From: Lysobacter sp. cf310 | GTDB taxonomy: Bacteria; Pseudomonadota; Gammaproteobacteria; Xanthomonadales; Xanthomonadaceae | Direction of reading: 5' to 3' | Assembly: GCF_900114355.1 (NCBI RefSeq) | Contig: NZ_FOSS01000001.1 | Coordinates: 980,368-1,044,367, forward strand | DNA: 64,000 nt | Shown: piece by piece, positions 18,379-35,304 of the stretch | Layout of the letters: each line of letters opens with the position of its first letter | How positions within the stretch are numbered: position 1 is the first letter of the stretch | Notes under the pieces: model-generated | What the model saw: the letters and a program-made list of their open reading frames with translations, nothing else | Told to the model about the DNA's origin: nothing | Database searches by the model: none | Made by a program: the position numbers and the translations under genes

Positions 18379-19170
18379 TCAGTCGACCAAGTTGCGGCCG
18401 TGGAACAGCTCTTCGATCTCGCGCTTGAGCCGCGCCTCGATCTTCATGCGCTCCTTGAACGACAGGTTCTTGGCCTTCTCCTCGAACAGGTAGTTGTCGA
18501 GGTCGAATTCCTTCAGGTGCATCTTGGTGTGGAAGATGTTTTCCTGATAGACGTTGACGTCGAGCATCTCGTAGCGCGACTTCACGTTCTTGGCCAGGTA
18601 GTCCTGGATCGAGTTGATCTTGTGGTCGATGTAGTGCTTCTTGCCCTTCACGTCGCGGGTGAAGCCGCGCACGCGGTAGTCCATGACCACGATGTCGGAC
18701 TCGAGGCTCTCGATCAGGTAGTTCAACGCCTTCAGCGGCGAGATCACGCCGCAGGTCGCCACATCGATGTCGGCGCGGAAGGTCGCGATGCCGTTGTCCG
18801 GGTGGGTCTCCGGATAGGTGTGCACGGTGATGTGCGACTTGTCCATGTGCGCGACCACGGCGTCGGAGATCACGCCCTTGGCGGCCGACTTGTCGATCAC
18901 CGGCTCTTCCGAGATCAGGATCGTCACCGAAGCGCCCTGCGGATCGTAGTCCTGGCGCGCGATGTTGAGGATGTTGGCGCCGATGATGTCCGCCACATCC
19001 GTGAGGATCTGGGTCAGTCGATCGGCGTTGTAGGCCTCGTCGATGTACTCGATGTACCGCTGGCGCTGCTCTTCCGAGACCGCGTAGCAGACGTCGTAGA
19101 TGTTGAACGAGAGGGCCTTGGTGAGGTTGTTGAAACCCTGCAACCTCAGGCGCGGCAACGGCTTGACCAC
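18379..19170 (-). CDS. speD: S-adenosylmethionine decarboxylase proenzyme
   Basis: 263 residues, the length of E. coli-type class 1A SpeD. Self-cleavage is expected before the Ser of [13 protein letters not shown], which becomes the pyruvoyl group; [13 protein letters not shown] and [15 protein letters not shown] are family segments. It makes decarboxylated SAM for spermidine synthesis. Start is a GTG with no strong ribosome-binding site. Divergent from clp across 218 bp; this pairing near trp genes is known from Xanthomonas. Confidence 0.97.
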
Positions 19171-19388
19171 GGTAGGGGGATCCCGGTCGGACGGCGAGGG
19201 CGTGGATTATGCGGCAAACGGCAGCGGGGGGAAACGCAGGCTGTCGTCCCGCTGTCACAAGTCGGAGGCCTGGGCGGCCAGGGGACTGCCCATATCGGCC
19301 CGGGGTGACGTAGAGTGCCGCAGGGTGACGCTATTTGCCCAATCCCCCGGTTCGTCCTAAGCTCACTCGATAACCTAAGCCCAATCCC

Positions 19389-20078
19389 ATGTCCGCCAAT
19401 CCGGTAGCCCCCTTGACTGCCCTGCGCCGAACCAATAGCCCGTTGCTGCCTGACGGCGCGACGATCGAACGCTTCCTGGCGCACTGCCACCGCCGACGCT
19501 ACCCGTCGCGGACCGACGTGTTCCGCCCGGGGGACCCCGCCAGCACCCTGTATTACGTGGTTTCCGGCTCGGTGAGCATCATCACCGAGGAGGAAGACGG
19601 CCGTGAACTGGTGCTGGGCTACTTCGGCCCCGGCGAGTTCGTCGGCGAGCTCGGCCTGTTCATCGAGAGCGACCATCGCGAGGTGATCCTGCGCACGCGC
19701 AGCACCTGCGAGCTCGCCGAGATCGGCCACGAGCGCCTCTACGACCTGCTGCTGACCCGGCTGTCGCTGGACGCGCCCAAGCTGCTGTACGCGATCGGCG
19801 CCCAGATTTCGCGCCGCCTGCTCGACACCAGCCGAAAGGCCGGCCGCCTGGCCTTCCTGGACGTGACCGACCGCATCGTGCGCGCCCTGCACGACCTGGC
19901 CAAGGAACCCGAGGCCATGAGCCATCCGCAGGGCACCCAGCTGCGGGTGTCGCGCCAGGAGCTGTCGCGCCTGGTCGGCTGCTCGCGCGAAATGGCCGGC
20001 CGCGTGCTCAAGAAGCTCCAGGCCGACGGCAAGCTGCACGCCCGCGGCAAGACCGTCGTCCTGTACGGGACGCGCTGA
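19389..20078 (+). CDS. clp: CRP-like global regulator Clp
   Basis: 229 residues. The N-terminal cyclic-nucleotide-binding fold (FRPGDPASTLYYVVSGSVSI, GEFVGELGLF) joins a CRP-type helix-turn-helix (VSRQELSRLVGCSREMAGRVL). Clp of Xanthomonas responds to cyclic di-GMP rather than cAMP and controls exoenzymes and exopolysaccharide; in Lysobacter it also controls lytic enzymes and antibiotics. Position beside speD and the trp cluster matches the Xanthomonas order. Followed after 14 bp by a GNAT gene that is probably co-transcribed. Confidence 0.96.
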   Translation: MSANPVAPLTALRRTNSPLLPDGATIERFLAHCHRRRYPSRTDVFRPGDPASTLYYVVSGSVSIITEEEDGRELVLGYFGPGEFVGELGLFIESDHREVILRTRSTCELAEIGHERLYDLLLTRLSLDAPKLLYAIGAQISRRLLDTSRKAGRLAFLDVTDRIVRALHDLAKEPEAMSHPQGTQLRVSRQELSRLVGCSREMAGRVLKKLQADGKLHARGKTVVLYGTR

Positions 20079-20092
20079 GCCGCCCTTCCACG

Positions 20093-20554
20093 ATGGGTCG
20101 CGCCGCCCCTTCCGCCGAGACCGCACCCCGGGTGCGTCCGGCGGAATTGGGCGATGCCCACGATGTCGCCCGCCTGCTCGGCGACCTGGGCTATCCCTGC
20201 AGCCGCGACGAAGCGGCCGAACGCATCGCCGTGGTCCGCCACGACCCGCGCCAGCACCTGCTGCTGGCCGAAATCGACGGCGACGCCTGCGGCCTGATCT
20301 CGCTCTACACCCTGTATTCGGTGGTCCACGGCACCGAGCTGGCGCGCATCACCGCGCTGGTGGTGTCGCCGGCCTGCCAGCGCCAGGGCATCGGCCGGCG
20401 CCTGCTGCGCGAGGTCGAGCTGATCTCGCGCCGCGTCGGCGTGACGCGCATCGAGGTCACCAGCAACCTGCGCCGCGACGAGGCGCACGCCTTCTACCGC
20501 GACTGCGGCTACAGCGACGGTTCGCTGCGGTTCGTGAAGGCGTTGGGCGACTAG
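20093..20554 (+). CDS. GNAT family N-acetyltransferase
   Basis: 153 residues with the GNAT acetyl-CoA fold: VRPAELGDAHDVARLL at the N-terminus, central strand ARITALVVSPACQRQGIGRRLL containing the pyrophosphate-binding Gln/Arg-x-x-Gly-x-Gly/Ala loop (RQGIGRRL), and EAHAFYRDCGY near the end. Substrate unknown. Likely co-transcribed with clp. Confidence 0.9.
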   Translation: MGRAAPSAETAPRVRPAELGDAHDVARLLGDLGYPCSRDEAAERIAVVRHDPRQHLLLAEIDGDACGLISLYTLYSVVHGTELARITALVVSPACQRQGIGRRLLREVELISRRVGVTRIEVTSNLRRDEAHAFYRDCGYSDGSLRFVKALGD

Positions 20555-20985
20555 CCCCGCCGGACAGCCGAGCGGGAGCGCTCGCAGGTGTGGCGAGCGC
20601 AGCGAACCGCACCGTCTCCGCCTCCTCAGCCCCCAACGATGCGGTTCGCTGCGCTCACCGCATCCTACGGCGCGGCGCCGGAAGGTCCGCGCCCGGCGCA
20701 TTTGCGCGGTCGCGGCCCGCATCGCGCCTGCTTCAAGGCCATCGGCCTCTAAGACTTTAGTCGGGTGCGGAGAGCGCAGCGACCCGCGCCGTATGCGACC
20801 TCGATACCGCGCGGCGATGCGGTTCGCTGTGCTCACCGCATCCTACGGGACCGCCGCGGATCGGGCGGCTCGCCGCTGTGCGTGCTTGCGCGGACTGCGG
20901 CCCCACAACGGGGCGTCCTGGCTCTCTGTGGGAGCGGCGTAAGCCGCGATTACGAAACCCTGGCGATCTTTGCGAGGCCGCGGCC
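20555..20985. repeat. Repeat-rich intergenic region between GNAT and HAD genes
   Basis: 431 bp without a supportable gene. It contains two palindromic units of the gatgcggttcgctgcg...caccgcatcctacg type (20638-20669 and 20815-20847), a half-unit near 20593-20611, and one gtgggagcggcgtaagccgcg unit (20927-20950). It separates the convergent clp-GNAT and trp/cyanophycin transcription units. Confidence 0.85.
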
Positions 20986-21726
20986 CTAGCCTGCCGCCGA
21001 CGCCACCGCGTCGCCGCCACGGCCGGGGCAGCCCCAGTTGAGGATGGGCGTGCCCGGCGGCAGCACGCGCTGGAACATCGCAATGCGGCGCGCCTTGGGG
21101 TTGACCACCACCGGCCGGCGCGCGGCCTTGAGCAGCGGCAGGTCGGCGCTGCTGTCGGAATAGGCGACCTCGACCGGCGCGGTGTAGCCGGCCTCGCGCA
21201 GCATGCTCATCTTCATTTCGGAGTGGCAGTGGCGCAGCGCGCCGACCCCGCCCAGGCGCGGGCCGACCAGGGTGCCGACCACCGGCACGTCCTCGTGGGC
21301 GACGAAGGCCAGGATCGCACGCGCCAGTTCCGGCGGCGCGCCGGTGGCGATCACCACCCGGTCGCCGCGCTCGCGATGGTGGTGCAGCACGTCCAGCGCC
21401 ACCGGCAGCAGGCGGCGGCGGATTTCGTCGGTGTGCACGGCCACGTAGCGGTCGATCACGCCGTTGAACTCGCGGCGCCCGCTCATGCCCACCGAACCGA
21501 CCCAGACGAAGCCGCCGATGCCGACGCGCCGGGTCGGCAGGAACGCGATCAGCGGCCCGAACACCGGTGCGATCAGCAGCGCCAGCACCTGCCGCCACCA
21601 CGCGCGCCGGATCAGCCAGGCGAACAGATGGCTGCCCGAGTCGCCGTCGTAGAGGGTGTGGTCGAAGTCGAACACCACCAGCGGCGCGTCCTCGCGCGCG
21701 GGCGGAAAGCGCCCCGCCGCGCTCAT
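20986..21726 (-). CDS. HAD-family phosphatase (HAD-IB type)
   Basis: 246 residues. Motif [16 protein letters not shown] supplies the nucleophile Asp and acid/base Asp; [18 protein letters not shown] is motif II, and [13 protein letters not shown] is motif IV. The overall pattern is that of phosphoserine phosphatase-like HAD-IB hydrolases, with a hydrophobic cap ([19 protein letters not shown]) suggesting membrane contact. The ATG overlaps the trpC stop as ATGA, so it is the last gene of the trp/cyanophycin unit. Substrate unknown. Confidence 0.85.
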
Positions 21727-22514
21727 GCCGCGAACAGCCGCTGCAGAGCCGCACCCGGGTCGCGCTCGCGCATGAAGCTTTCGCCGATCAGGAAGGTTTC
21801 GATGCCGGCGCCGCGCATCTTGGCCACGTCGGCGCCGGTGGCGATGCCGCTCTCGGTGACCAGGGTGCGATCGCGCGGCACCGCGTCGCGCAAGGCGATG
21901 GTGGTGTCCAGCGAGACCTCGAAGGTGCGCAGGTTGCGGTTGTTGACGCCGATCAGCTCGCAATCGGTCTGCAGCGCGCGTTCCAGCTCGTCGATGTCGT
22001 GAACCTCGACCAGCACGTCCATGCCCAGCTCCATCGCCAGGCCGGCCATTTCGATCATCGGGCCGTCTTCGAGCGCGGCCACGATCAGCAGGATCGCGTC
22101 GGCGCCGATCACCCGCGCCTCGTAGACCTGGTAGGGATCGATGGTGAAGTCCTTGCGCAGCACCGGCAGCGCGCAGGCCGAACGCGCCTCGCCCAGGTAG
22201 AGGTTGCTGCCCTGGAAGAAATCCACGTCGGTCAGCACCGACAAGCAGGCCGCGCCGCCGGCCTCGTAGCTGCGCGCGATCTGCGCGGGCTGGAAGTCGG
22301 CGCGGATCAGGCCCTTGGACGGGCTGGCCTTCTTGACCTCGGCGATCACCGCGGCCTCGCCGGCGGCGTGCTTGCGCTTGATCGCGTCGACGAAGCCGCG
22401 CGTGGGCGCCTGCTGCGCCGCGCGCGCGCGCAGGTCGTCCAGCGAGCGCACCCGGCTGCGCTGTTCGATCTCCTCGACCTTGCGGGCCAGGATCGTGCGC
22501 AGAACATCGGTCAT
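21723..22514 (-). CDS. trpC: Indole-3-glycerol-phosphate synthase
   Basis: 263-residue TIM-barrel enzyme closing the indole ring in tryptophan synthesis. Visible signatures are [49 protein letters not shown] and [14 protein letters not shown]. The start overlaps the cphA' stop as ATGA and the stop overlaps the HAD start as ATGA. It is separated from trpD by five cyanophycin-associated genes, whereas trpD and trpC are adjacent in Xanthomonas. Confidence 0.97.
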
Positions 22515-24325
22515 TCCATCATCTCCACATCGCCCGTCAGGGGCTGGCCGGGGCGCCATTGTCCCAGTTGCAGCCGATCGAGCAAGACGACGACCGCCTC
22601 GCGGGCCTCGCTGTTGTGGACGGGCAGCACCAGGACGTCGCCCGGCCCGGCCCAGCGCAGCAGGCGGGTGGCGGCCTCGACCTCGTCCAGGCAGACCTCC
22701 AGCGCGCCCTCGGCCAGGCCGCGGCGGCGCAGCTCGTCGCCCAGGATCGCGGCGACCTCGCCCGCGGCGCGGCCACGCATATAGCCCTCCAGATCCTTGA
22801 GCACGACCCGGTCCGGCCGGAAACCGGCCGCGACCGCCGCCAGTTCGCGGATGTCGCGGTCCTCGCGGTTGCCGGCCTGGCCCAGCAGCAGGCCGAGCCG
22901 GCGCCCGGGCCGGGCCGCGACCTCGAGCAGCTTGCCCAAGCCGTCGGGGTTGTGGGCGTAGTCCAGGTAGACCTCGCTGTCGCCGTAGGTCCAGCGCTGC
23001 AGGCGCCCGGGGTTGTCGCCGGGCGCGGCGCCGAACCGCGCCAGCACCTGGGCGATGCGCTCGGGTGCGACGCCCAGCGCCGCCGCCGCGAGCGCGGCGC
23101 CGGTCAGGTTGGCGAGGTTGTAGGCCACGCGCCCGCCCAGGGTCAGCGGCATCGCGGCGACCTCGCCCAGGTCGTGATCGCGGCCTTCGTAATGCAGGCG
23201 CAGGCGGCCGTCGCGCACGCCGCAGGTCGCGCCGCCTTGCTCGCGGTGCGCGCGCAGGCGCGGGTGCGACTCGTCCAGCGCGAACCAGCCGATCCGGTGC
23301 GGCAGCGCCGCGCCATGCCGCACCAGCAGTTCGTCTTCGGCGTTGAGCACCAGCAGGCCGTCCTCGGCCAGGCCGCGCGCGACCGTGAGCTTCACCTGCG
23401 CCAGATCGTCGAGGTTGTGGATGCCGTACTCGCCGAAATGATCGGGGCTGATATTGGTGACCAGGGCCACGCGCGCGCGCTGCGGGGTGAGGCCGCGGCG
23501 CAGCAGCCCGCCGCGCGCGGTCTCCAGGATTGCCGCCTCCACGTCGGGGCGGCGCAACAGCGTGCGCGCGCCGACCGGGCCGGAGTAGTCGCCGCCGTCG
23601 ATGCACTCGCCGTCGACGTACAGCCCATCGGTGCTGCTGTGGGCGGTGTGCCAGCCCTGCGCGCGCGCCATCGCGGCGAGCACGCGCACGCTGGTGGTCT
23701 TGCCGTTGGAGCCGGTGACGATGGCCTTGGGGATGCCGTGCAGTTGCGGCCAGGGCACTGCGTCGGCCGTCGGCAGCGCATCCAGGCCCCAGGTACGACT
23801 GCCGGCACCCTCGCCCAGCGACAGCGCATCATCGTCGCTGTAGGCCAGCACCGCATGCGTTTGCGCCAGCTCGATCAGTCCGATCACGTCGGGACGCGCC
23901 TCCGCGCGCGCCGAGGCCTGCAGCGTGCGCAAGGCATTGTCGCGATCCCAATACGCCGCGTGTCCGGGCGCATGCGGCGGCAACGCGGCCTGCTCGACCG
24001 GACCGGTCACGTCGATCCACGCCCATTCGTTGATTTCGGTGGCGCTGTACAGGCAATCGACCGGCGCGACGAAGGCCAGGGATGCGCCGCTGGCGTGTTC
24101 GCGCACGACGATGTCGCCTGCTTGCGGCCAGCGCAACAGATCGCGCGCTTCGGCGACGTTCCGCCGCCAGCGCGCGAGCGCGGACGCCTGCGGCCGCTCG
24201 CCCCGCGTCTCCAGCACCGCGCCAGGCCGATCGAAATACAGATTCGCGCCAGTCAACCGGCGCGAATCCTCGAACGGAAACTCGTACTCCGGTAGCGCGG
24301 CCGCTGGGTTGGACTCAGCCGTCAC
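22511..24325 (-). CDS. Second cyanophycin-synthetase-like Mur ligase (CphA')
   Basis: 604 residues from a GTG directly after the cphA stop. The N-terminal ~200 residues are divergent and show no ATP-grasp motifs. From ~residue 200 a Mur-ligase module follows: P-loop [39 protein letters not shown] and [13 protein letters not shown]. Such CphA' proteins accompany CphA in several proteobacteria. This differs from cyanobacterial CphA2, which keeps the ATP-grasp. A role in cyanophycin synthesis or modification is inferred from position and similarity. Confidence 0.85.
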
Positions 24326-27115
24326 TCAATCGCTCTCTTCGCGTTCGAAGCGCAGGCCGCGTTCGTCGCGGACCACGCCTTCCATGGCCGCGACCACGGC
24401 CTCGTCCAGGGTCTGCTCCAGCGGCGGCAGCTCGATGCGCGCGGTCGCCGCGGCCACGCCGCCCTCGGGTTGGAAATGGATGATCTGCTTCCACGAGCGC
24501 GCCAGCGCGTCGGCGAACACCAGCAGCAGGTCGCCGGATTGGGCCATGCGCAGGGCGGCGTCGATCGCGGCCTGCTCGTCGGGAATGATGGTGATCGCGG
24601 CCTCGCTCACGCCGCGCGCCTGCAGGGCCTTGGCGATGATGCGCGGCACCTCGTCGCCGTCGCGCCCGCGCAGGCCGTCGTCGCGGCGGCAGACGTAGTG
24701 GTCGAACTTGCCGGCCACGGCCTCGGCGATCGCGTGCAGGTCCTCGTCGCGGCGGTCGCCGGGGCCGGCGACCACCACCAGACGGCGTCCGGCCACGTCC
24801 AGGCGCTGGGCCAGATCGGCCATCACCCCGACCGCGTGCGCGTTGTGGCCGTAGTCCATGAGCACCTTGAACGGATGCTCGTTGTAGACGTTCATGCGCC
24901 CCGGCGCCTGGAAGAAGGTGGTGTCGAAGGTGCGCAGGCCGTGGCGGATCGCGTCCAGCTTCATGCCCAGCGAGAACGCCATCGCCGCGGCCACCATCGC
25001 GTTCTGCACGTTGTGCAGGGCGCGGCCTTCCATCGTGGCCGGGATCAGGTGGGTCCACAGCAGCGGGATGTGGCTGCCCTTGTCGTACAGCGTGATCATG
25101 TGGCCGTTGACGCCGGCTTCGAGCGCGCAGGCGCGGCCGCCGGCGCGGATGTGCTCGCGCACCAGCGCGTGGGCCGGATTCATGGTGACGTAGCAGATCA
25201 CCTTGGCGTCGGTGTAGGCCGACATCTTCAGCACGTTGGGATCGTCGGCGTTGAGCACCGCGCAATCCTTGGCCACTTCCACCACCACGCGCTTGACCTC
25301 GGCCAGCTGCTCCAGGGTGTCGATGCCCTTCAGGCCCAGATGGTCGGACTGGATGTTGATGACCGCGCCGACGTTGACCTCGGACACGCCCATGCCGGCG
25401 CGCAGCAGGCCGCCGCGCGCGGTTTCCAGCACCGCCAGGTCGATCTGCGGATCCGACAGCACCATGCGCGCCGACACCGGCCCGGTCATGTCGCCCTCGA
25501 CCGTGCGCTGGCCGTCGATGTAGACGCCGTCGGTGGTGGTGAGGCCCGGGGTGTAGCCGGCCATCTTGGCGATGTGCGCCAGCATGCGCGCGGTGGTGGT
25601 CTTGCCGTTGGTGCCGGTGACCGCGGCGATCGGCACGCGCGACGGCGTACCGGGCGAGAACAGCATGTCGATCACCGGGCCGGCGGCGTCGCGCGGCGTG
25701 CCTTCGCTGGGCGCGACGTGCATGCGGAAGCCCGGCGCGGCGTTGATCTCGCAGATGCCGCCGCCGGCGTTCTTGTAGCTCTCGGCGATATTGGGCGAGA
25801 TGAAGTCGACGCCGCCCACGTCCAGGCCGATCGCGCGCACCGCGCGCACCGCCATGTCGCGGTTGTCGGGATGGATGATGTCGGTGACGTCGGTGGCGGT
25901 GCCGCCGGTGGACAGGTTGGCGGTGGAGCGCAGGTAGACGACCTCGTCGTCGGCCGGCACCGACTCGGCGGTGTAGCCGACCCGCTCCATCATCAGCGCG
26001 GCTTGAGCGTCGAGTTCCAGCCGGGTCAGCACCTTCTCGTGGCCGACGCCGCGGCGCGGGTCCTGATTCACCGCCTCGACCAGCTCGGCGATCGTGCGCT
26101 GGCCGTCGCCGACCACGTGGCCGGGCGTGCGCCGGGTCGCGGCGATCAGCTCGCCGTTGACCACCAGCAGGCGGTGGTCGTCGCCGCCGACGTAGGTCTC
26201 CACGATCACCGAGCGCGAATGCTCGCGCGCGGCCTCGAAGCCGGCGCGGATCTCGTCCTCGCTGGAAATGTTGATGGTGATGCCGCGGCCGTGGTTGCCG
26301 TTGTAAGGCTTGGTCACCACCGCGCCGCCGAGCTTGCGCGCCGCGCGCACCGCGCCCGAGGCGTCGGTGACCAGCTCCTGGCGCGGCACCGGCAGGCCCA
26401 GCGAGGCCAGGATCTTGTTGGTCTCTTCCTTGTCGCTGGCCAGCTCGACCGCGATGTGCGGGGTGCGGCCGGTGACCGTGGCCTGGATGCGCTGCTGGTA
26501 CTTGCCGTGGCCGAACTGGATCAGCGACTGCGTGTTCAGGCGCAGCCACGGAATCCCGCGCTCCTCGGCCGCGCGCACCAGCGAAGCGGTCGACGGGCCC
26601 AGCGCGCGGCGCTGGGCGTAGCGGATGAAGTCGTCGCGCGCCGATTCCCAATCCCAGTCCTCGGGCACGCTGCCGGCCGGACGCAGTTCGACCGGCAGCA
26701 GCGAGCTGAGCAGCTTCAGACCGAGCTCGCCGGCGGCGATGCCCTCCTCGCGCTGGGCGTACTCGTAGACCACCGAGTACACGCCGGGGCGGTCGTCGCC
26801 GACGCTGCGGGTCTTGCCGAAGGTGACGTTTTCGCCGGCGACGTTCTGCAGCTCGATGGCCACGTGTTCGAGCACGTGGCCCAGCCAGGTGCCGTCGTCC
26901 TCGCGCAGGCGGCGCACGAAGCCGCCGGGCGCGCGGTAGGAGCAGCCGTGCTCGGCCAGGCCGGGCAGCGCCGCCAGCAGGCCGTCGACGAAGGCCGGCC
27001 CCAGGCGCGCGGTCGGCCAGGCCTCCAGCGCCTGCAGGTCCAGTTCCAGCCGTATGACCGGAAAATGCGCATACAGCGAAGGGCCGACGTAGACGGTGCG
27101 TTCGAGTATGCGCAT
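24326..27115 (-). CDS. cphA: Cyanophycin synthetase
   Basis: 929 residues, the usual CphA1 length. N-terminal domain (1-~165), ATP-grasp domain (~210-470, with VTKPYNGNHGRGITINI) that adds Asp to the backbone, then a Mur-ligase domain (~490-890, P-loop [44 protein letters not shown]) that attaches Arg to each Asp side chain. Product is the nitrogen-storage polymer multi-L-arginyl-poly-L-aspartate. All key motifs are intact. Starts 12 bp after the cyanophycinase gene. Confidence 0.97.
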   Translation of the reverse strand: MRILERTVYVGPSLYAHFPVIRLELDLQALEAWPTARLGPAFVDGLLAALPGLAEHGCSYRAPGGFVRRLREDDGTWLGHVLEHVAIELQNVAGENVTFGKTRSVGDDRPGVYSVVYEYAQREEGIAAGELGLKLLSSLLPVELRPAGSVPEDWDWESARDDFIRYAQRRALGPSTASLVRAAEERGIPWLRLNTQSLIQFGHGKYQQRIQATVTGRTPHIAVELASDKEETNKILASLGLPVPRQELVTDASGAVRAARKLGGAVVTKPYNGNHGRGITINISSEDEIRAGFEAAREHSRSVIVETYVGGDDHRLLVVNGELIAATRRTPGHVVGDGQRTIAELVEAVNQDPRRGVGHEKVLTRLELDAQAALMMERVGYTAESVPADDEVVYLRSTANLSTGGTATDVTDIIHPDNRDMAVRAVRAIGLDVGGVDFISPNIAESYKNAGGGICEINAAPGFRMHVAPSEGTPRDAAGPVIDMLFSPGTPSRVPIAAVTGTNGKTTTARMLAHIAKMAGYTPGLTTTDGVYIDGQRTVEGDMTGPVSARMVLSDPQIDLAVLETARGGLLRAGMGVSEVNVGAVINIQSDHLGLKGIDTLEQLAEVKRVVVEVAKDCAVLNADDPNVLKMSAYTDAKVICYVTMNPAHALVREHIRAGGRACALEAGVNGHMITLYDKGSHIPLLWTHLIPATMEGRALHNVQNAMVAAAMAFSLGMKLDAIRHGLRTFDTTFFQAPGRMNVYNEHPFKVLMDYGHNAHAVGVMADLAQRLDVAGRRLVVVAGPGDRRDEDLHAIAEAVAGKFDHYVCRRDDGLRGRDGDEVPRIIAKALQARGVSEAAITIIPDEQAAIDAALRMAQSGDLLLVFADALARSWKQIIHFQPEGGVAAATARIELPPLEQTLDEAVVAAMEGVVRDERGLRFEREESD

Positions 27116-27127
27116 GTGAACCTCACT

Positions 27128-27970
27128 TCATGTCTTGGGTGGTGCCAGCGAACCGGCGGATGCTTTGCGGGTGTTGAGATTGAACGTGGCGCCCCTGGTG
27201 AGGATATGCACGCCCAGGCCGAGCAGGCACACCGGCTCGTTCTCGCCGACCAGGTGCATGGACGAGAACTGCAGGCCGTCGGCGTCGACCACGGTGACCG
27301 AACCGCTGCCCTCGACCTCGATCGTGTTGTCGGGCGCGATGAAGGCCGCCGTGTCCTCGTCCAGACCGATCCCGACCGCGAACGGGTTGTAGGCCAGCGA
27401 CGCCACCAGACGGCCGAGACGGTCGCGCTGACGGAAGTGCTGGTCGATCACCACGCGGTTGGTCAGACCCAGGCCCGGCGCGAGCCGGACGCTGTTGGCG
27501 CGCGGCGACGCCCCTTCGACACCGTAAGCGATCATGTGCTCGCTGAGAATACTGGCGCCGGCGCTGGTGCCGCCGACGGTCACGCCCTGCGCGTTGCGGG
27601 CACGGATCGCTTGCGCCACCGGTGTGCCGCCCAGCAGGGTCGAAATCCGCACCTGGTTGCCGCCGGTGAAGAAAATACCGCTGGCGCGCTCGATCCGGCG
27701 CACCCGGCCCGGCTCGTGGCAGTCGCGACGGGTGTCGAAGTCCATCACCTCGACCTGCGCCGCGCCGAGCTCGCTGAACAGCTTCTCGTAACGATCGCCG
27801 GTATCGGCCAGACGGCTGGCCGTGGGAATCACCACGATATCGGCCGAGCGGCCGCCGCTGACCTGGAGGAAACGCCGCAGGATGGCGGTGTCGTTCTCTT
27901 TGTCTTCCGCTCCGCCGATCGGAACGATCCAACCCCGTTGTTCGCCATCGGGGATTCTGCTGGGTGCCAT
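27128..27970 (-). CDS. cphB: Cyanophycinase
   Basis: 280-residue S51-family serine peptidase that degrades cyanophycin to beta-Asp-Arg dipeptides. Signatures are IPIGGAEDKEND-like VPIGGAEDKEND near the start, FFTGGNQVRI, and the nucleophile elbow VGGTSAGASIL with catalytic Ser, followed by GLGLTNRVVIDQHF. No signal peptide, so it acts in the cytoplasm on stored granules. Lies between iadA (18 bp) and cphA (12 bp). Confidence 0.96.
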   Translation of the reverse strand: MAPSRIPDGEQRGWIVPIGGAEDKENDTAILRRFLQVSGGRSADIVVIPTASRLADTGDRYEKLFSELGAAQVEVMDFDTRRDCHEPGRVRRIERASGIFFTGGNQVRISTLLGGTPVAQAIRARNAQGVTVGGTSAGASILSEHMIAYGVEGASPRANSVRLAPGLGLTNRVVIDQHFRQRDRLGRLVASLAYNPFAVGIGLDEDTAAFIAPDNTIEVEGSGSVTVVDADGLQFSSMHLVGENEPVCLLGLGVHILTRGATFNLNTRKASAGSLAPPKT

Positions 27971-27988
27971 CTACTTGCTCGCTTCTAC

Positions 27989-29197
27989 TTAAACTTGATC
28001 GGATTGCCGCGACGGGGTTTCGAACTGGCCGTGGCGCAGCACCGCGCCATCGCGCACGTGCGCCGTCCCGCCTATGAACACATCATGCGCCGCCCCGCCC
28101 GCGTCCAGGGCGACCAAGTCGGCATCGGCGCCGACCTCGATCCGGCCCTTCGCGTCCAGACGCAGCAGGCGCGCGGGGTTGAGGGTGTAGGCGGGCAAGG
28201 CGCGCTCCAGCGCGACGCCGCGCGCGAGCACCGCGTTCAGGCTGTCCAGCAGCGCGCCCGACTCGCCCACGTCCATGCCGCACACGCGCCCGTGCGCGTC
28301 GAAACAGGGCAGGCAGCCGCCGGCATCGGAGCTCACCGTTACCCGCTCCGGCGGCGCGCCGCTGTCGAGGTAGCGCTGCAAGGCCTCGTCGGCGCTCCAG
28401 GCGTCCTCGCCCTCCTCGACCGGGAACGCGGTCAGATCGACCCAGCAGCCGCGGCGCGCGAGCGCCAGCGCTTCCTCGAACAGCGCCTTGCGCCGGTTGA
28501 CGTGGGTGGGGTTGAACACGCGCGCCGGCAGTTCGCTGCGCTCCAGGGCCTGGCGCACCAGCTCCAGCCCGCGCGCGCCGTCGCCCAGATGCAGATGCAC
28601 GATGCCGGCCTTGCCGGTCATCAAGCCGGCCACGTGCGCTTCCGAGGCCAGTCGCAGCAGTTCGTCCAGGGTCGGCTGGCTGGAGCGGTGATCGCTGATC
28701 GCGACCTCGCCTACGCCGAGCAGGGGTTCGATGAAGGCCACATCGCCGCGCACGCTGCCGGTCAGGGTGGCCGGCGGCAGGTGGTAGCCGCCGCAATAGC
28801 CCCAGGCGTTCAAGCCTTCCTCGCGCAATGCGTAAATCGCCGCGACCAGCTCGCGCGTGCTGCGTGCCAGATCGTCGGTGCCGAGCAGGCCGACCACGCT
28901 GGTCACGCCGGCGCGGGTGTAACGCGACAGCATCGGCGCGGGCACGCGGGTGCGGAAACCGGCTTCGCCGCCGCCGCCGGTGACGTGCACATGGCCGTCG
29001 ATCAGCCCCGGAATCAGACGCCGGCCTTGCAGGTCGATGCTGTCGACCAACCACTCGGCCGGCACGGACGGCGCATCGGCGCCCATCCACAGGATCTTGC
29101 CGCCGCCCAGCAGCAGGTGCTGCCGGCCCAGCGGCTGCGGCGCGTACACCTCGGCGTTGCGCAGCAGGCGCAATCCGGCATGCGCGGCCTTACTCAT
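27989..29197 (-). CDS. iadA: Isoaspartyl (beta-aspartyl) dipeptidase
   Basis: 402-residue amidohydrolase. Metal-binding HVH in IPGLIDGHVHVTGGGGE, a further His pair in GIVHLHLGDG, and the catalytic Asp in TVSSDAGGCLPCF. The start at 29197 overlaps the upstream ABM gene by 8 bp and gives the normal IadA N-terminus. It would split the beta-Asp-Arg dipeptides released by CphB into Asp and Arg, completing cyanophycin use. Confidence 0.93.
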   Translation of the reverse strand: MSKAAHAGLRLLRNAEVYAPQPLGRQHLLLGGGKILWMGADAPSVPAEWLVDSIDLQGRRLIPGLIDGHVHVTGGGGEAGFRTRVPAPMLSRYTRAGVTSVVGLLGTDDLARSTRELVAAIYALREEGLNAWGYCGGYHLPPATLTGSVRGDVAFIEPLLGVGEVAISDHRSSQPTLDELLRLASEAHVAGLMTGKAGIVHLHLGDGARGLELVRQALERSELPARVFNPTHVNRRKALFEEALALARRGCWVDLTAFPVEEGEDAWSADEALQRYLDSGAPPERVTVSSDAGGCLPCFDAHGRVCGMDVGESGALLDSLNAVLARGVALERALPAYTLNPARLLRLDAKGRIEVGADADLVALDAGGAAHDVFIGGTAHVRDGAVLRHGQFETPSRQSDQV

Positions 29198-29540
29198 CTT
29201 GCGGTCCCCTGCTCCAGCCGTACGCGCGCTCGACCTTGGCCACGCGCAATTCGTAGCGACCATACCAGTGTTTGCGGCCGCGTTCGCGGGTGGCGGCGTG
29301 CTCGAGATTGCGCTTCCAGGCCACGATCGAGGCCTCGTCCGCCCAGTAGCTGACGGTGATGCCGAAGCCGTCCGCACCGCGCGTGGATTCGACGCCGAGA
29401 TAGCCGGGCTGCTGCGCGGCCAGCTCGACCATGCGCTCGGCGGCCTCGCCGTAGCCGGCGTCGTCCTGATCGGTGCGTCGCGAGCTGAAGATCACCGCGT
29501 AATACGGCGGCGTGGGCAGTGTGGCGAAGGGATCGCTCAT
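29190..29540 (-). CDS. Antibiotic-biosynthesis-monooxygenase (ABM) domain protein
   Basis: 116 residues with the ferredoxin-like ABM fold: YYAVIFSSRRT, MVELAAQQPGYLGVES, and SYWADEASIVAWKRNLEH. These are small cofactor-light oxygenases or heme/quinone-related proteins; the actual role here is unknown. It lies 34 bp after trpD and overlaps iadA by 8 bp, so it is part of the same unit. Confidence 0.87.
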   Translation of the reverse strand: MSDPFATLPTPPYYAVIFSSRRTDQDDAGYGEAAERMVELAAQQPGYLGVESTRGADGFGITVSYWADEASIVAWKRNLEHAATRERGRKHWYGRYELRVAKVERAYGWSRGPQDE

Positions 29541-29574
29541 GGTCGGGCTCGCTGGCGAAGGCTGGCGAAAGAGC

Positions 29575-30606
29575 TCAGGACGCGAGTCGCTGGGTCGCGG
29601 CGACGAACTCGTCCAGTTTGGCGCGCGCGGCGCCGGAAGCGAGCGCGGCGCGTGCGCTCGCGATGCCCTCGGCGATGCTGTCGACGGTGCCGGCCGCGTA
29701 CAGCGCGGCGCCCGCGTTGAGGGCGACGATCTCGCGCGGCAGGCCGTCGCGGTTCTCCAGCGCCTGCAGCAGCATGGCCTTGGACTCGGTCGCGTCGGCC
29801 ACGCGCAGATTGCGGCTGGCGGCCATGGCGATGCCGAAGTCCTCCGGATGCACTTCGTACTCGCGCACCACCCCGTCGCGCAGCTCGCCGACCAGCGAGC
29901 CGGCGCCCAGCGACAGCTCGTCCATGCCGTCGCGGCCCCAGACCACCAGCGCGCGCTGCGCGCCCAGTTCCTGCAGCACGCGCACCTGGATGCCGACCAG
30001 ATCGGGATGGAACACGCCCATCAGAATGCTGGGCGCGCTGGCCGGATTGGTCAGCGGGCCGAGGATGTTGAACAGGGTGCGCACGCCCATCTCGCGCCGC
30101 ACCGGCGCGACCACCTTCATCGCCGGGTGGTGCACGGGCGCGAACATGAAACCGATGCCGGTGTCGGCGATGCACTGCGCGACCTGCTCGGGCTGCAGCT
30201 CGATCGCCGCGCCCAGGGCCTCGAGCACGTCGGCGCTGCCGGACTTGGACGAGACGCTGCGGTTGCCGTGCTTGGCGACCTTGGCGCCGGCCGCGGCGAC
30301 CACGAACATGCTGGCGGTGGAGATATTGAAGGTGTGCGCGCCGTCGCCGCCGGTGCCGACGATGTCGACCAGGCCGCTGCGGTCGGCGACCTCGACCGGG
30401 CGCGCGAACTCGCGCAACACGGTCGCGGCGCCGGCGATTTCGCCGACGGTTTCCTTCTTCACGCGCAGGCCGGTGAGGATGGCCGCGGTCATGGTCGGCG
30501 AGACTTCGCCGCGCATGATCATGCGCATCAGCTCGACCATCTCGTCATGGAAGATCTCGCGGTGCTCGATCGTGCGCTGCAGCGCTTCTTGCGGGGTCAG
30601 GGGCAT
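29575..30606 (-). CDS. trpD: Anthranilate phosphoribosyltransferase
   Basis: 343 residues from the ATG at 30606 (a TTG six codons upstream is less likely because MPLTPQEAL matches relatives). Signatures are [17 protein letters not shown] for PRPP binding, [21 protein letters not shown], and [15 protein letters not shown]. Transfers phosphoribose to anthranilate. 28 bp after the small secreted-protein gene. Confidence 0.97.
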
Positions 30607-30634
30607 GGCGCGGTCCGGATTCAAAGCTCGGCGA

Positions 30635-30985
30635 TCAGAGCGAAGCGTGTTCGAGGATTTCCTGGCCCATCAGGACGCAGTCGTCGCCGAGGCGGTAGTA
30701 CTCCAGGCGCATCCGGTACTGGCCCTTGTAGACGTAGCCCCAGACTTCCAGCACGTCGAAGCGCTGCTTGGGATTGGCCGGATTGACGATGGACGGCAGT
30801 GGCTTGGCCGGGCCGGACACTTCGGCGCGGTCGTCGTCGTCGGTGTGGAAGGCCAGCAGCTTCTTGGCCTGAATCACCGCGTCGGCGGCGCAGGCCTTGC
30901 TGGACGGCTGGGTCGCCGCGTGCGCGCTGGCGCTCGATCCGGCCAACAGCGCAAGGGCGAAAACGAAGGGCATGCGGATCATCAT
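30635..30985 (-). CDS. Small secreted protein within the trp unit
   Basis: 116 residues. Signal peptide [17 protein letters not shown], then a mature domain with two Cys (KACAADAV and DDCVLMG) and [17 protein letters not shown]. No family recognised. ATG shares its A with the trpG stop (TGATG), so it is translationally coupled although its product is exported and not obviously tied to tryptophan. Confidence 0.82.
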
Positions 30986-31566
30986 CAACGCTCCAGGAAG
31001 TTCTTGAGCAGAGCGTGGCCGTGCTCGGTCAGGATCGACTCGGGGTGGAACTGCACGCCCTCGACCGGATGCTCGCGGTGGCGCAGGCCCATGATCTCCT
31101 CGAAGCTGCCGTCCTCGTGCTCGGTCCAGGCGGTGATTTCCAGGCAGTCCGGCAGGGTCTCGCGCGACACCACCAGCGAGTGGTAGCGCGTGGCTTCGTA
31201 GCGGTCGGGCAGCCCGGCGAACACGCCCTGCCCCTGGTGGCGGATGCGCGAGGTCTTGCCGTGCATGATGGTCTTGGCGCGGACCACGTCGCCGCCGTAG
31301 GCCTGGCCCAGGCTCTGGTGGCCCAGGCAGACGCCCAGGATCGGCACCTTCGCGCCGAGTTCGCGGATCAGGTCCAGCGATACGCCGGCCTCGTTCGGCG
31401 TGCACGGGCCGGGCGAGATCACGATCCGCTCCGGCTGCAGCGCCGCGATCTGCGGCACCGTCAGATCGTCGTTGCGGATCACCTTCACCTCCGCCCCCAG
31501 CGCCTGCAGGTACTGCACGAGGTTGTAGGTGAAGCTGTCGTAGTTATCGATCATCAGTACGGACAT
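30985..31566 (-). CDS. trpG: Anthranilate synthase component II (glutamine amidotransferase)
   Basis: 193-residue class I glutamine amidotransferase. Motifs are [14 protein letters not shown], oxyanion loop [13 protein letters not shown], catalytic Cys in [19 protein letters not shown], and His/Glu in [12 protein letters not shown]. Supplies ammonia to TrpE and, as is common, may also serve p-aminobenzoate synthesis. Its partner trpE is 4 kb away and shares the same leader design. Confidence 0.96.
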
Positions 31567-31749
31567 GACGCGTCTCGAAAGCGTTGGGGGCCGGGGCTGG
31601 GGGAGCGGAGATCGGGCTGCGAGCCGCCACGCGCGGACACATCCAGCGGCGGCCGCGGCTGCGCGGACGCCAGCCCACGATTATCCGGCCGCGGGCGGTC
31701 CACGGGAAATAACGATCGCGAGGGGGTGCGGCGCGGGGACGCGCGGCCG

Positions 31750-31911
31750 TCAGGCGAGGCTGGACAGCGGACGGCGCGGGCGTGGAGCGAAGGCGATGGA
31801 GTCACGCGGGGTTTCCCGGAAGGACGACGGAACGCAGACGGCGGCAGCACGCCACCATCGCCAGCCCGGGACGGCCTTGGACGGGAATTGCGGGTTCGCG
31901 CGAACGATCAT
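31750..31911 (-). CDS. Predicted Trp leader peptide upstream of trpG
   Basis: A 53-codon frame starting ATG ATC GTT, with Gly-Trp-Arg-Trp-Trp at residues 16-20 and stop at 31750. The three Trp codons lie in the 5' arm of a hairpin (31837-31859). The trpE leader has the same GWRWW and the same promoter spacing. The stop is 184 bp before the trpG start. No run of T follows the hairpin, so the mechanism may not be classic attenuation. An overlapping GTG frame (31805-31554, 83 codons) aligns by position with the trpE start and runs into trpG by 13 bp. Confidence 0.72.
   Translation of the reverse strand: MIVRANPQFPSKAVPGWRWWRAAAVCVPSSFRETPRDSIAFAPRPRRPLSSLA
31837..31859 (-). promoter_or_regulatory. 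Hairpin over the Trp codons of the trpG leader
   Basis: Arms 31837-31845 and 31851-31859, nine pairs including two G-T, loop agcac (plus strand). The minus-strand 5' arm reads gatggtggc and covers the tandem Trp codons, so a ribosome stalled there would open it. Confidence 0.6.
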
Positions 31912-31917
31912 GGGCCT

Positions 31918-31947
31918 ACTGTAGCCGCTTCGCGGGCCCGACGCGAC
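31918..31947 (-). promoter_or_regulatory. Predicted promoter of the trpG unit
   Basis: Minus strand: GTCGCG (31947-31942), 18 bp, TACAGT (31923-31918), then six bases to the leader ATG. The identical hexamers and spacing occur before the trpE leader. The short distance predicts a leaderless leader peptide mRNA. It sits 20 bp past the histidine-kinase stop. Confidence 0.55.
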
Positions 31948-31967
31948 GGGCCGGCCCGGCGTCGGCG

Positions 31968-33341
31968 CTAGCCGCGGCCGGCTTCGGCCGCGGCCAGCGC
32001 GACGCGTACCTCCAGCCCGGGCGCGTTGTCGCCCAGGCTGACGTGGCCGCCGTGGCGGTGCGCGATCGCGCGCACCAGGCTCATGCCCAGGCCGGTGCCG
32101 GGCGAGCCACGGTGCGCCTCCAGGCGCTGGAAGCGGTCGAACACGCGTTCGCGGTCGGCCGGCGGGATGCCCGGGCCGCGGTCGCCGATGGCCAGCGTGA
32201 CCGTACCGCGCTCGCGGCGCAGGCGCACTTCGACCTCGCTGTCGGCGGGCGCGTACTTGACCGCGTTGTCGAGCAGATTGACCAGCATCTGGAACAGCTG
32301 GTCGGCGTCGCCGCGCACCGTCGCCGGCGCTTCGTCGGCGCGCGGCAGCTGGGTGCGCAGGACGATGCCGCGCTCGCCCGCGCTGGGCGTGTACAGCTCG
32401 ACCGCGTCGCGCGCGAGCTCGGCCAGGTCCAGCACCGGCTCGTCCTGCACCGGCGACTGCGCCTCGATCCGCGCCAGCCGCAGCAGCGCGCCGAAGGAAT
32501 GCAGCAGCTGGTCGGTCTCGGCGATCGCCGCGTCCAGCTCGGCTTCGCGGCCGGCGCCGTCGGGGCGGTCGCGCAGTTCCTCCAGGCGATTGCGCAAACG
32601 CGTCAGCGGCGTGCGCAGGTCGTGGGCGATGTGGTCGGTGGCGTGGCGCACGCCGCCCAGCAGTTCGCCGATGCGGTCGAGCATGCCGTTGAAGCGACGC
32701 GCGAGCCGGTCGAAGGCATCGTCGCTGCCGTCCAGGGCCACGCGCAAGGCGAGCTCGCCGCCGCCCACGCGTTCGGCGGTGTCGTCCAGGCTGCGCAGGC
32801 GCCGCGACACCCAGCGCGAGGTCAGCCAGCCGATCAGCGCGCCCAGGGTGGCGGCGACCAGCAGCGCGGCCAGCGCGGTGCGCAGCATCAGGGCCAGGAA
32901 GCGTCCCTGCGAGCGCAGGCGCACGCCGGTCAGCAAGGTATCGCCGCCGGACAGGCGTTGCAGTTGCGCGACCACGCGCAAGCGCTCGTCGCCGTCGCGC
33001 TCGACGAATTCGGTCCAGCGCTGGTGCGGCGCGCGCGCGATCGGACGGCCCTGGTAGCGGCCCGCGAGCACGCGCCCGTCGGCCGCGATCAGGGCGTAGA
33101 CCGCGTCGGGATCGTCCTGCGCGTCCAGGCGTTCGCGCAATTCGCTTTGCAGCGCCGCGCGGCCGTGTTCGCGGTACAGCTCGACCAGGCCGGCGGCATC
33201 GGCGCGCACCACTTCGCGCGCGTCCTCGACCAGCAGCGCCGACACCGTGTAGTGCACGCCCGCGCCCAGCAGCACGAACGCGAGCAGGAAGGAGGCGGTG
33301 ACCGCCAGCGCCAGCCGGCCGCTGGTGGAGCGCAGGGTCAT
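31968..33341 (-). CDS. Sensor histidine kinase
   Basis: 457 residues. TM1 (~10-35), a periplasmic sensor of ~120 residues, TM2 (~155-180), HAMP (RWVSRRLRSLDDTAERVGGG), phospho-acceptor His in DHIAHDLRTPLTRLRNRL, N box DNAVKYAP, G boxes GDRGPGIPP and GTGLGMSLV. Pairs with the OmpR-type regulator whose stop overlaps its ATG (ATGA). Signal unknown. Confidence 0.94.
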   Translation of the reverse strand: MTLRSTSGRLALAVTASFLLAFVLLGAGVHYTVSALLVEDAREVVRADAAGLVELYREHGRAALQSELRERLDAQDDPDAVYALIAADGRVLAGRYQGRPIARAPHQRWTEFVERDGDERLRVVAQLQRLSGGDTLLTGVRLRSQGRFLALMLRTALAALLVAATLGALIGWLTSRWVSRRLRSLDDTAERVGGGELALRVALDGSDDAFDRLARRFNGMLDRIGELLGGVRHATDHIAHDLRTPLTRLRNRLEELRDRPDGAGREAELDAAIAETDQLLHSFGALLRLARIEAQSPVQDEPVLDLAELARDAVELYTPSAGERGIVLRTQLPRADEAPATVRGDADQLFQMLVNLLDNAVKYAPADSEVEVRLRRERGTVTLAIGDRGPGIPPADRERVFDRFQRLEAHRGSPGTGLGMSLVRAIAHRHGGHVSLGDNAPGLEVRVALAAAEAGRG

Positions 33342-34012
33342 GCGCCCAGCCGGTAGCCGGCGCCGCGCACCGTGTGCAGCAGCGGTTTGGGATAGCCCAG
33401 GTCGATCTTCTGGCGCAGGCGGCTGATGTGCACGTCGATGACGTTGGTCTGCGGATCGAAGTGATAGTCCCACACCGCTTCCAGCAGCATGGTGCGGGTG
33501 ACCACGCGCTCGGCCTGGCGCATCAGGTATTCGAGCAGACGGAACTCGCGCGGCTGCAGCTCGATGCGCTTGCCGCCGCGACGGGCCTCGCGGCTGAGCA
33601 GGTCGAGTTCGAGATCGGCCACGCGCAAGCGCGTCGGCTCGCTGCCGCCGGCGCTGCCGCGGCGCAGGATGCTGTCCAGGCGCGCGCTGAGCTCGGCGTA
33701 GGCGAAGGGTTTGACCAGATAGTCGTCGGCGCCGGCGCGCAGGCCCTCGACGCGGTGATCGACCTCGCCCAGCGCGGTCAGCAGCAACACCGGCGTGCGG
33801 TTGCCGGCGCCGCGCAGGGTCTGCAGCAGGACCAGGCCGTCCAGCCCGGGCAGCATGCGGTCCAGCACGAGCGCGTCGTAGCGCTCGGTGGTGGCCAGGA
33901 ACAGCCCGTCCTTGCCGTTGTCGGCATGGTCGACGGTGTGGCCGTCTTCGCGCAGGCCCTTGGCGATGAAGCCCGCGGTATGGGGATCGTCTTCGATCAG
34001 CAGGACGCGCAT
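33338..34012 (-). CDS. OmpR-family response regulator
   Basis: 224 residues. Receiver domain with acidic pocket EDD, phospho-acceptor Asp in DALVLDRMLPG, and conserved Lys in DDYLVKPF; winged-helix DNA-binding domain with VWDYHFDPQTNVIDVHISRLRQKID and TVRGAGYRL. Start at 34012 gives the canonical MRVLLIEDD; the longer frame is unlikely. First gene of the two-component pair. Confidence 0.96.
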   Translation of the reverse strand: MRVLLIEDDPHTAGFIAKGLREDGHTVDHADNGKDGLFLATTERYDALVLDRMLPGLDGLVLLQTLRGAGNRTPVLLLTALGEVDHRVEGLRAGADDYLVKPFAYAELSARLDSILRRGSAGGSEPTRLRVADLELDLLSREARRGGKRIELQPREFRLLEYLMRQAERVVTRTMLLEAVWDYHFDPQTNVIDVHISRLRQKIDLGYPKPLLHTVRGAGYRLGA

Positions 34013-34167
34013 GCCGACTCCCGGTCTCGCAAAAAGAATACCCCGCCGGGAGGAAGCCGGCGGGGCAGCCACCTGGGGTTTAGGTGGGCTTCGGGGACGT
34101 ATGAACGGTGGAACGCAGGAAGGAGGCGGTTGCGGTACGGCAGTTGCGGTAGGTGGTTACGGCGCGA

Positions 34168-34527: not shown

Positions 34528-35304
34528 TCAGTCGGCGAGCAGGAACACCGTGTAGATCTTGTCCTGGAAGTCGATGTAGCCGGCCTGGAACGAGGTCGAC
34601 GGCGCCTGCGCGATACGGCTGCCGGTGACCTGGATGCGATCCAGCTGATAGCCGTCGCGGCCGTTGCCCGACCAGGCGTACAGCGCCGGCCAAGTACCTT
34701 CGCGCACGCCGTAGTCGAACTGGGGCGCGACGTCGGACACGCTGTAGACGCCGCCCAACCGCGCACCATAGGCGCGCGCGATCACTTCGGCCTTCTCGCG
34801 CGAGGAGGCGATGCTCTTCTCGCGCAGCTGGCGGCGCAACTCGGGCTCGCTGGACAGCTCGGCGGCCACGCTGGAAATCGTCAGCTCCTCGGAGGTCTTC
34901 ACTTTCGCAAGGAAGCGTTCCAACGCCTCCTTGCCCCCGAAGCGCGCGCTCAGCGTGCGGCGCACGCCGGTGCCGACGAAGACCTCCTGGCGCAGCTTGT
35001 CGTCGTAGCGGCGGCGGGTATCGACCTGCAACGAGGTCGCGACGATCTCGTTGTCGGCCACGCCGACCGCCTTGAGCTGCGCCAGCGTCTGCTGCAGATG
35101 GGCCTCGACCCGCGCCTGCGCCGCCGCCGGATCGGCGTCGATCGCCTCCAACTGCATCGCGATCTTGTAGCGGTCCGGTACCGCGCGCGCCTGCGCATCG
35201 CCATAGACCAGGATGTGCCGCGTCGGCGGCAGGGCGTTGACCTGCGCCTGCGCGGCGGTGGAAATGAAAGCCAGGCCGAGCAAGGCCAGGGTACGCAACT
35301 TCAT
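34528..35304 (-). CDS. SIMPL-domain (DUF541) periplasmic protein
   Basis: 258 residues. Signal peptide LALLGLAFISTAAQAQ, then the SIMPL/DUF541 domain: HILVYGDAQARAVPDRYKI, VGVADNEIVATSLQV, and ASSREKAEVIARAYGARLGG. AAGGAGG at good spacing before the ATG at 35304 fixes the start. E. coli YggE, a relative, is linked to oxidative stress; function here unknown. A GC-rich hairpin lies just after the stop at 34490-34511. Confidence 0.88.
   Translation of the reverse strand: MKLRTLALLGLAFISTAAQAQVNALPPTRHILVYGDAQARAVPDRYKIAMQLEAIDADPAAAQARVEAHLQQTLAQLKAVGVADNEIVATSLQVDTRRRYDDKLRQEVFVGTGVRRTLSARFGGKEALERFLAKVKTSEELTISSVAAELSSEPELRRQLREKSIASSREKAEVIARAYGARLGGVYSVSDVAPQFDYGVREGTWPALYAWSGNGRDGYQLDRIQVTGSRIAQAPSTSFQAGYIDFQDKIYTVFLLAD

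Follow-up and report, generated by a model that had tools for sequence, protein, structure and literature searches.

Cyanophycin gene clusters of the cphA-cphB and cphA-cphB-iadA types have been surveyed by Sharon and Schmeing 2023 (PMC10206079), and about one-sixth of the genomes with CphA1, cyanophycinase and IadA have them clustered; the main text of that survey carries no mention of tryptophan or trp. In Lysobacter capsici AZ78 a two-gene cluster has been described, in which the cyanophycinase gene is immediately followed by the synthetase gene (PMC4742617), and synteny has been studied in activated-sludge bacteria (PMC10687191); tryptophan is unmentioned in the text of these two papers. 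We have analysed a 64,000-nucleotide stretch of DNA from Lysobacter sp. cf310 (contig NZ_FOSS01000001.1, positions 980,368 to 1,044,367; this whole stretch is called the window here), in which the genes for CphA, cyanophycinase and isoaspartyl dipeptidase are clustered as in the surveyed genomes and cphB adjoins cphA as in L. capsici of the same genus, but the cluster lies inside a tryptophan (trp) operon. The trp genes of the window have the order and strand of the Xanthomonadaceae arrangement trpE...trpG-trpD-trpC-clp-speD, in which trpC is usually followed by a convergent clp and by speD. A search of titles and abstract openings, which left most subscription journals uncovered, gave no paper among those listed that links cyanophycin genes with the trp operon. 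The locus has a conserved, multi-genus operon architecture, made of known parts in a new and apparently undescribed combination. Our preferred reading, to which we give a probability of roughly two in three, is that the genes form one operon, that trpD/ABM and trpC have been parted by the insertion of a complete cyanophycin module, and that the whole would be controlled by tryptophan.

The unit runs on the minus strand over 20986-31566 and holds ten genes in the order trpG-hyp-trpD-ABM-iadA-cphB-cphA-cphA'-trpC-HAD, as follows.

30985-31566, minus strand: trpG (TIGR00566 over cut-off, PF00117)
30635-30985, minus strand: hyp, a small gene of 116 residues (no Pfam or NCBIfam match)
29575-30606, minus strand: trpD (TIGR01245, 418 bits, over cut-off)
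29190-29540, minus strand: ABM-domain gene (PF03992)
27989-29197, minus strand: iadA, isoaspartyl dipeptidase (TIGR01975 over cut-off; aligned with 8dqn and 5xgw)
27128-27970, minus strand: cphB, cyanophycinase (TIGR02069, 265 bits, over cut-off; 7uqv, 3en0)
24326-27115, minus strand: cphA, cyanophycin synthetase with ATP-grasp and Mur-ligase domains (TIGR02068, 1102 bits, cut-off 850; 7lgm, 7lgn)
22511-24325, minus strand: cphA', a CphA paralogue with the Mur-ligase part alone (Pfam and NCBIfam)
21723-22514, minus strand: trpC (NF001373 over cut-off)
20986-21726, minus strand: HAD-family phosphatase gene (PF12710)

Nine of the ten genes match named identities, hyp being the one with no match in Pfam or NCBIfam, and the closest named relatives are Lysobacter sp. 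Root76 and Root916. From the coordinates, it is clear that the genes are packed closely: trpG and hyp overlap in TGATG, ABM and iadA by 8 nucleotides (nt), and cphA'/trpC and trpC/HAD each in ATGA, and the remaining gaps measure 28 bp (hyp/trpD), 34 bp (trpD/ABM, the largest), 18 bp (iadA/cphB), 12 bp (cphB/cphA) and 0 bp (cphA/cphA'). All ten tightly spaced minus-strand genes of the original prediction were therefore found, with several overlaps and no gap beyond 34 bp; its span, which extended to 31947, was too long, since the first gene starts at 31566 and 31750-31923 is occupied by a leader open reading frame (ORF) and a promoter-like box. Terminators or promoters splitting the unit, which would have spoken against the original prediction, did not emerge either, as terminator-like sites in 19000-33500 were at chance level (6, against a mean of 4.5 in shuffled sequences) and a consensus promoter scan of the same interval gave no promoter-like site. 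Judged from sequence, the genes have the marks of an operon, namely one strand, short gaps and internal terminators not above chance. Since trpC starts inside the end of cphA', no gap exceeds 34 bp and no terminator stands above chance, we infer that transcription reads through the unit; and since the same order recurs in other genomes, the order is more than chance.

The cyanophycin enzymes were identified with curated models. CphA scored 1102.5 bits against TIGR02068 (cut-off 850, residues 2-881) and has N-terminal, ATP-grasp and Mur-ligase parts (PF18921, PF08443, PF08245 and PF02875), its residues 1-904 aligning with 7lgm; CphB scored 265.3 bits against TIGR02069 (cut-off 126.6), and IadA 374.2 bits against TIGR01975 (cut-off 331.25). 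The CphB sequence GGTSAGAS aligns with GTSAGA of 3en0, and GTSAG is the nucleophile motif of cyanophycinases. Because CphA, CphB and IadA pass their curated cut-offs and the greater part of each aligns with solved relatives, the unit is predicted to encode the synthesis and depolymerisation of cyanophycin as well as the cleavage of dipeptides, and the earlier claim that these three functions are joined with trp genes stands.

To place the module relative to the usual gene order, 198 genomes of the family were searched, of which 186 gave TrpC at E 1e-50 and 44 gave CphA at E 1e-150 (three of these 44 were only 44-54% identical and two others partial). Gene order was compared in 96 trpC regions of the family. 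In the 13 embedded regions, that is those with the module between the two genes, the trpD-trpC interval is 5.6-7.7 kb, whereas it is at most 1.2 kb in all 83 regions without the module and below 0.6 kb in 80 of them. In 49 of these 83 module-less loci, three Lysobacter loci included, the trpD-trpC interval is occupied by the ABM gene, which therefore does not belong to the insert; its assignment to the cyanophycin module was ruled out on this ground, and on gene order it is the ancestral occupant of the interval. The cph-less Lysobacter loci L091, L100 and L102 (L and G numbers are our labels for loci and genomes, and g numbers are genus codes) read trpD-ABM-trpC, with ABM and trpC overlapping in ATGA. 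Among embedded loci, the cphA'/trpC overlap is ATGA in 9 of the 22 distinct loci that have this junction, eight duplicate records having been removed by hand, and in those nine the splice has, by this comparison, kept the ATGA overlap at trpC. The new gene borders are no looser than the native ones in the window and in several relatives. Taken together, the comparisons support insertion of a complete module (IadA, CphB, CphA, CphA') between trpD and trpC of the usual order. The survey of trpD-trpC neighbourhoods that the original prediction had proposed as a check thus upheld the insertion, with the amendment that ABM is part of the usual order, and showed an arrangement common to Lysobacter, Luteimonas, Thermomonas and their kin, related bacteria of soil and water.

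Fourteen of the 44 CphA-bearing genomes of the family, spread over six genus codes, have cphA on the strand of trpC and no more than 5 kb from it: six in g1 (Lysobacter), three in g51 (Thermomonas), two in g28 (Luteimonas), and one each in g13 (Lysobacter sp. M2-1), g37 and g46 (Lysobacter tolerans). By our estimate for a genome of about 3.5 Mb, chance would bring cphA near trpC in about 0.1-0.2% of genomes. A survey of named records, covering the best 80 of 197 CphA' relatives, gave 17 trp-embedded ones from Lysobacter, Luteimonas, Thermomonas, Lysobacter tolerans, Lysobacter sp. M2-1 and metagenome-assembled genomes; the other 63 of these 80, Pseudoxanthomonas, Dokdonella, Arenimonas and two Luteimonas (L024, L030) among them, have no trp gene in the stretch examined, some of these stretches being short. 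In the order as a whole, CphA at E 1e-200 was found in 95 of 299 genomes, 81 of them outside the family. Sixty-eight of the 81 were looked up for TrpC, which was found in 64, and G218, a member of another family, is alone in having the module beside trp (iadA-cphB-cphA-cphA'-trpG-trpD-trpC); this single case is a lower bound, because 13 genomes were left out, four had no TrpC match and many are fragmented. A phylum-wide sample gave CphA at E 1e-180 in 10 of 398 genomes, and none of the eight lying outside the order has CphA near trpC.

The possible link to tryptophan lies in two short Trp-rich ORFs. In the classical trp attenuator (E. coli trpL; Rfam Trp_leader), a short ORF with clustered Trp codons lies in the 5' arm of a hairpin before trpE. 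The corresponding features of the window are the following.

37223-37228, minus strand: TACAGT, putative promoter-like -10 box of trpE, ending 7 nt before the leader ATG
37072-37215, minus strand: trpE leader ORF of 47 residues, running into the trpE start region
35619-37109, minus strand: trpE, anthranilate synthase component I, GTG start (PF00425, PF04715; TIGR00565 partial, below cut-off)
31918-31923, minus strand: TACAGT, putative promoter-like -10 box before the trpG leader
31750-31911, minus strand: trpG leader ORF of 53 residues (MIVRANPQFPSKAVPGWRWWRAA...), an apparent duplicate of the trpE leader

A Trp-rich ORF precedes trpE in 58 of 78 loci, and in 48 of the 78 it contains Trp-Arg-Trp-Trp (WRWW). 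The same criteria applied to four control genes gave Trp-rich ORFs in 0/61, 1/48, 0/29 and 1/29 cases and WRWW in none. A TANA(G/T)T box lies no more than 22 nt before 47 of the 48 WRWW trpE leaders (as exact TACAGT in 20), compared with 0/48 for windows of the same size farther upstream, and the leader is present in 12 of the 14 embedded loci with a readable trpE upstream region. With only 7 nt between box and leader ATG in the window, the transcript may begin at the ATG itself or close by. A TGG-Arg-TGG pattern picked 58 trpE leaders, of which 54 were aligned (L113, L114, L116 and L146 were left out), and the Arg codon between the Trp codons was CGA in all 54; since the leaders were picked by their Trp codons, only the constancy of this Arg codon and the surroundings are informative. 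These Trp codons belong to the 5' arm of a hairpin, and the changes seen in its other arm mostly keep the pairing (18 of 378 cells unpaired). Shuffles that left the 5' arm unchanged gave hairpins less stable than the real ones (mean z -1.51), 18 of the 54 falling in the lowest 5%. The trpE leader of the window resembles E. coli trpL in its clustered Trp codons, in their place in a hairpin 5' arm and in its position directly before trpE, but differs from Trp_leader in that it has no Rfam match, that its ORF runs into trpE and that its transcript is possibly leaderless. The literature search described above, with the same coverage, gave no paper among those listed that describes this leader or tryptophan attenuation in the family.

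The leader before trpG is more restricted. Its WRWW peptide was found by alignment in 10 of 10 Lysobacter loci, a few bases after the TACAGT box, and it also occurs in 7 of 8 g45 loci and in some of g26, g52 and g19, and is not general elsewhere; in g19, L115 has an RWWR ORF before trpG, and L117, L119 and L123 of the same genus have WRWWR ORFs there. It retains a stretch like the ribosome-binding site and start region of trpE (RETPRD versus KEPPRD in translation), and so appears to have arisen by duplication of the trpE leader. Six of 19 copies form hairpins in the lowest 5% of shuffles. Our first screen upstream of trpG gave 27 of 104 loci with false positives included, against 10 of 109 for a trpD control, the controls using ATG starts only; its matches in L016, L138, L142 and L162 look unrelated, as do the scattered Trp-rich ORFs returned by a looser search upstream of trpG outside the Lysobacter group. 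The co-regulation with tryptophan supply put forward in the original prediction therefore gains sequence support from the Trp-rich leaders before trpE and trpG, and at the transcript level it stays a prediction.

Several observations weigh against a tryptophan-controlled operon of this kind. In some embedded relatives, genes of the unit stand far apart (trpD-ABM 205 to 346, for example, cphB-cphA 603 in L133 and cphA'-trpC 307 in L139), and promoters may lie inside coding sequences. By the criteria used, 20 of 78 loci have no trpE leader, among them the embedded L014 and L190. Two-sided covariation is absent from the hairpin, its consensus energy is weak at -2.72 kcal/mol, and no Rfam match was obtained in the window at gathering score, both leaders being covered, or at E up to 10 in 31450-32150 on the trpG side. 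When 19 trpG-side leaders were scanned, terminator candidates appeared only in L091 and L102, neither of them convincing. Outside the Trp block, the trpG leader has no sign of purifying selection, its codon differences being 261 synonymous versus 723 non-synonymous in 19 sequences, with no excess at third positions. Because the trpG side has neither a convincing terminator nor an Rfam match, a classical transcription attenuator is unsupported. On the trpE side, the leader ORF of the window runs into trpE and leaves no room for a terminator, which points to a translational or Rho-linked mechanism. The WRWW leader is a possible translational attenuator with an apparently leaderless start before trpE. 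Control by TrpR was also considered, and the best match in the genome scored 33.7 bits, below the cut-off of 67.25.

With Trp-rich leaders before both trpE and trpG, the cph genes are probably part of a tryptophan-attenuated unit. In the mechanism that we propose, a shortage of charged tRNA-Trp would make the ribosome stall at the Trp-Arg-Trp-Trp codons in the 5' arm of the hairpin; the stalled ribosome would open the hairpin and raise the expression of trpE and, by operon polarity, of the genes downstream, and in Lysobacter the leader copy before trpG would do likewise for trpG-trpD-iadA-cphB-cphA-cphA'-trpC. The module would then probably be transcribed with trp, its level rising when charged tRNA-Trp falls and falling when tryptophan is plentiful, and cyanophycin turnover would follow amino-acid biosynthetic demand, not a dedicated nitrogen signal. 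This wiring may be useful to the cell, or it may be a by-product of landing in a well-expressed operon. To our knowledge, the regulation of cyanophycin outside cyanobacteria has been little studied, and the gene order suggests a specific input for it, namely tryptophanyl-tRNA charging. If true, the WRWW leader would also extend tryptophan attenuation to the Xanthomonadaceae.

How the module came to lie beside trp has been examined with trees, which bear on the rival explanations. In a joined CphB-CphA-CphA' tree of 86 rows, a single group of 35 rows (support 86 by the Shimodaira-Hasegawa-like approximate likelihood ratio test, SH-aLRT) takes in every one of the 23 modules sited between trpD and trpC, along with 12 sited elsewhere. 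This clustering favours one old trpD-trpC insertion that was inherited, or transferred when the flanking trp genes recombined, and that was followed by losses and exits, and the TrpD tree can be read in the same way. There, three cph-less Lysobacter stand beside L092, L094 and L096 (supports 85 to 89) and so break up the embedded ones, which allows for loss inside the genus; the embedded Thermomonas-code genomes and G037 group with Lysobacter-like TrpD, as if trpD and module had been exchanged together; and three of the four non-embedded relatives stand away from these embedded ones, the fourth, the module-less L143, grouping with them as after a loss. A simple reading of these TrpD placements is that homologous recombination moved trpD and the module as one piece and that L143 then lost the module. 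Other placements argue against a single insertion. The module of G218/L190, the 24th, lies upstream of trpG and pairs with that of its relative G209/L191 (support 100), which is located elsewhere, so that the arrival of G218 beside trp appears separate; and in G037/L144 the module lies across ABM, on its trpD side and not its trpC side. These two cases suggest that the module came to lie beside trp more than once. The TrpC tree, in disagreement with the TrpD tree, places the seven embedded Lysobacter in one clade (97) above three cph-less ones (81 to 93), which reads as a gain and suggests that the module was gained within Lysobacter (the TrpC rows of L131-L134 cover only the C-terminal end of a TrpC-HAD fusion ORF and group falsely, and the change count of this tree was not used). 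Forcing the 23 modules into one clade was rejected by the approximately unbiased (AU) test (p-AU 4.7e-63, two long rows left out), though exits from trp would equally give this rejection. On balance, at least two separate arrivals beside trp are likely and three are possible, and we regard one old insertion as tenable, with a chance short of even.

The module may also have arrived passively, by landing in a well-expressed housekeeping operon where it was kept because it is harmless; it would then either be transcribed with trp but have no physiological link with it, or be served by internal promoters of its own. We take this to be possible, if on the doubtful side. In 30 of the 44 CphA-bearing genomes of the family the module is not beside trpC, so a trp address is not needed; ten genes flanking the module in six non-embedded loci, among which arginine and other amino-acid genes were sought, have no common theme (one had no match); and the unit of the window carries ABM, HAD and the small hyp gene as well, which have no obvious trp role. 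Mere hitchhiking is harder to reconcile with arrivals that seemingly took place more than once, at different points of the operon, and with new gene borders as tight as the native ones. The opposite extreme, that the trp operon has repeatedly captured the module (at ABM/trpC, at trpD/ABM and upstream of trpG) because a leader sensing tRNA-Trp, and not nitrogen regulators, gates synthesis and breakdown of the storage granule, seems to us unlikely. An assembly or annotation artefact is hardly credible, and is refuted by independent assemblies that share the order, which recurs in two one-contig genomes (G116, G037) and in named records of several genera. The reading that we prefer is thus that of one operon with a spliced-in module and predicted control by tryptophan. 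A single module found at different places in the same amino-acid operon offers a natural experiment on how unrelated pathways can be taken up by operons while the host genes go on being translated.

Upstream of the unit, trpE lies about 4 kb from trpG on the same strand and was counted in the same gene set. Three genes stand between them, and the presence of this trio varies among relatives.

34528-35688, minus strand: SIMPL-domain protein (Pfam)
33338-34072, minus strand: response regulator (Pfam)
31968-33473, minus strand: histidine kinase (Pfam)

At E 1e-50 this genome gives no TrpC match other than the trpC of the unit, which is therefore most likely the cell's own. In L131-L134 (g28, Luteimonas), TrpC and the downstream HAD phosphatase are one ORF of 557-574 residues, for which Pfam gave IGPS and HAD in L131; such a fusion hints at a functional link of the HAD phosphatase to the tryptophan pathway. 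The small hyp gene (30635-30985) has a signal-peptide-like start by eye and occurs mainly in the nearest Lysobacter, with relatives in L009/L089, L010 and L090 and weaker ones in L105 and L180. In G046 (g46; L195, L185), only distant trpG-trpD-trpC homologues were found, with 38-48% identity and lying together, and the cph module is at a different site, which looks like a replacement of the native trp operon.

The CphA paralogue is distinct from the synthetases. CphA' scored 313.6 bits against the TIGR02068 cut-off of 850, over residues 196-574 alone, and had no ATP-grasp match; its description as a cyanophycin synthetase was dropped in favour of a Mur-ligase-only paralogue. Nor does it correspond to CphA2, an enzyme that has kept its ATP-grasp part and lost the Mur ATP site, since CphA' has the opposite make-up, with TGSNGKT in its Mur part and the ATP-grasp match absent. 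The CphA' proteins of L037, L048, L050, L058, L063, L198 and L205 are interrupted, at about the same site (after ..ATEVNEWAx), by an in-frame insert with a length of very roughly 180 residues, and L070 and L082 have the same split match. In the three that were tested (L050, L198, L205) the insert is DUF559 by Pfam, and in most of the seven it is flanked by repeat-like peptides (..REKVxEGRMR.., ..SALRAPSPxGRR..), so that it looks like a mobile endonuclease-like element living inside a coding sequence.

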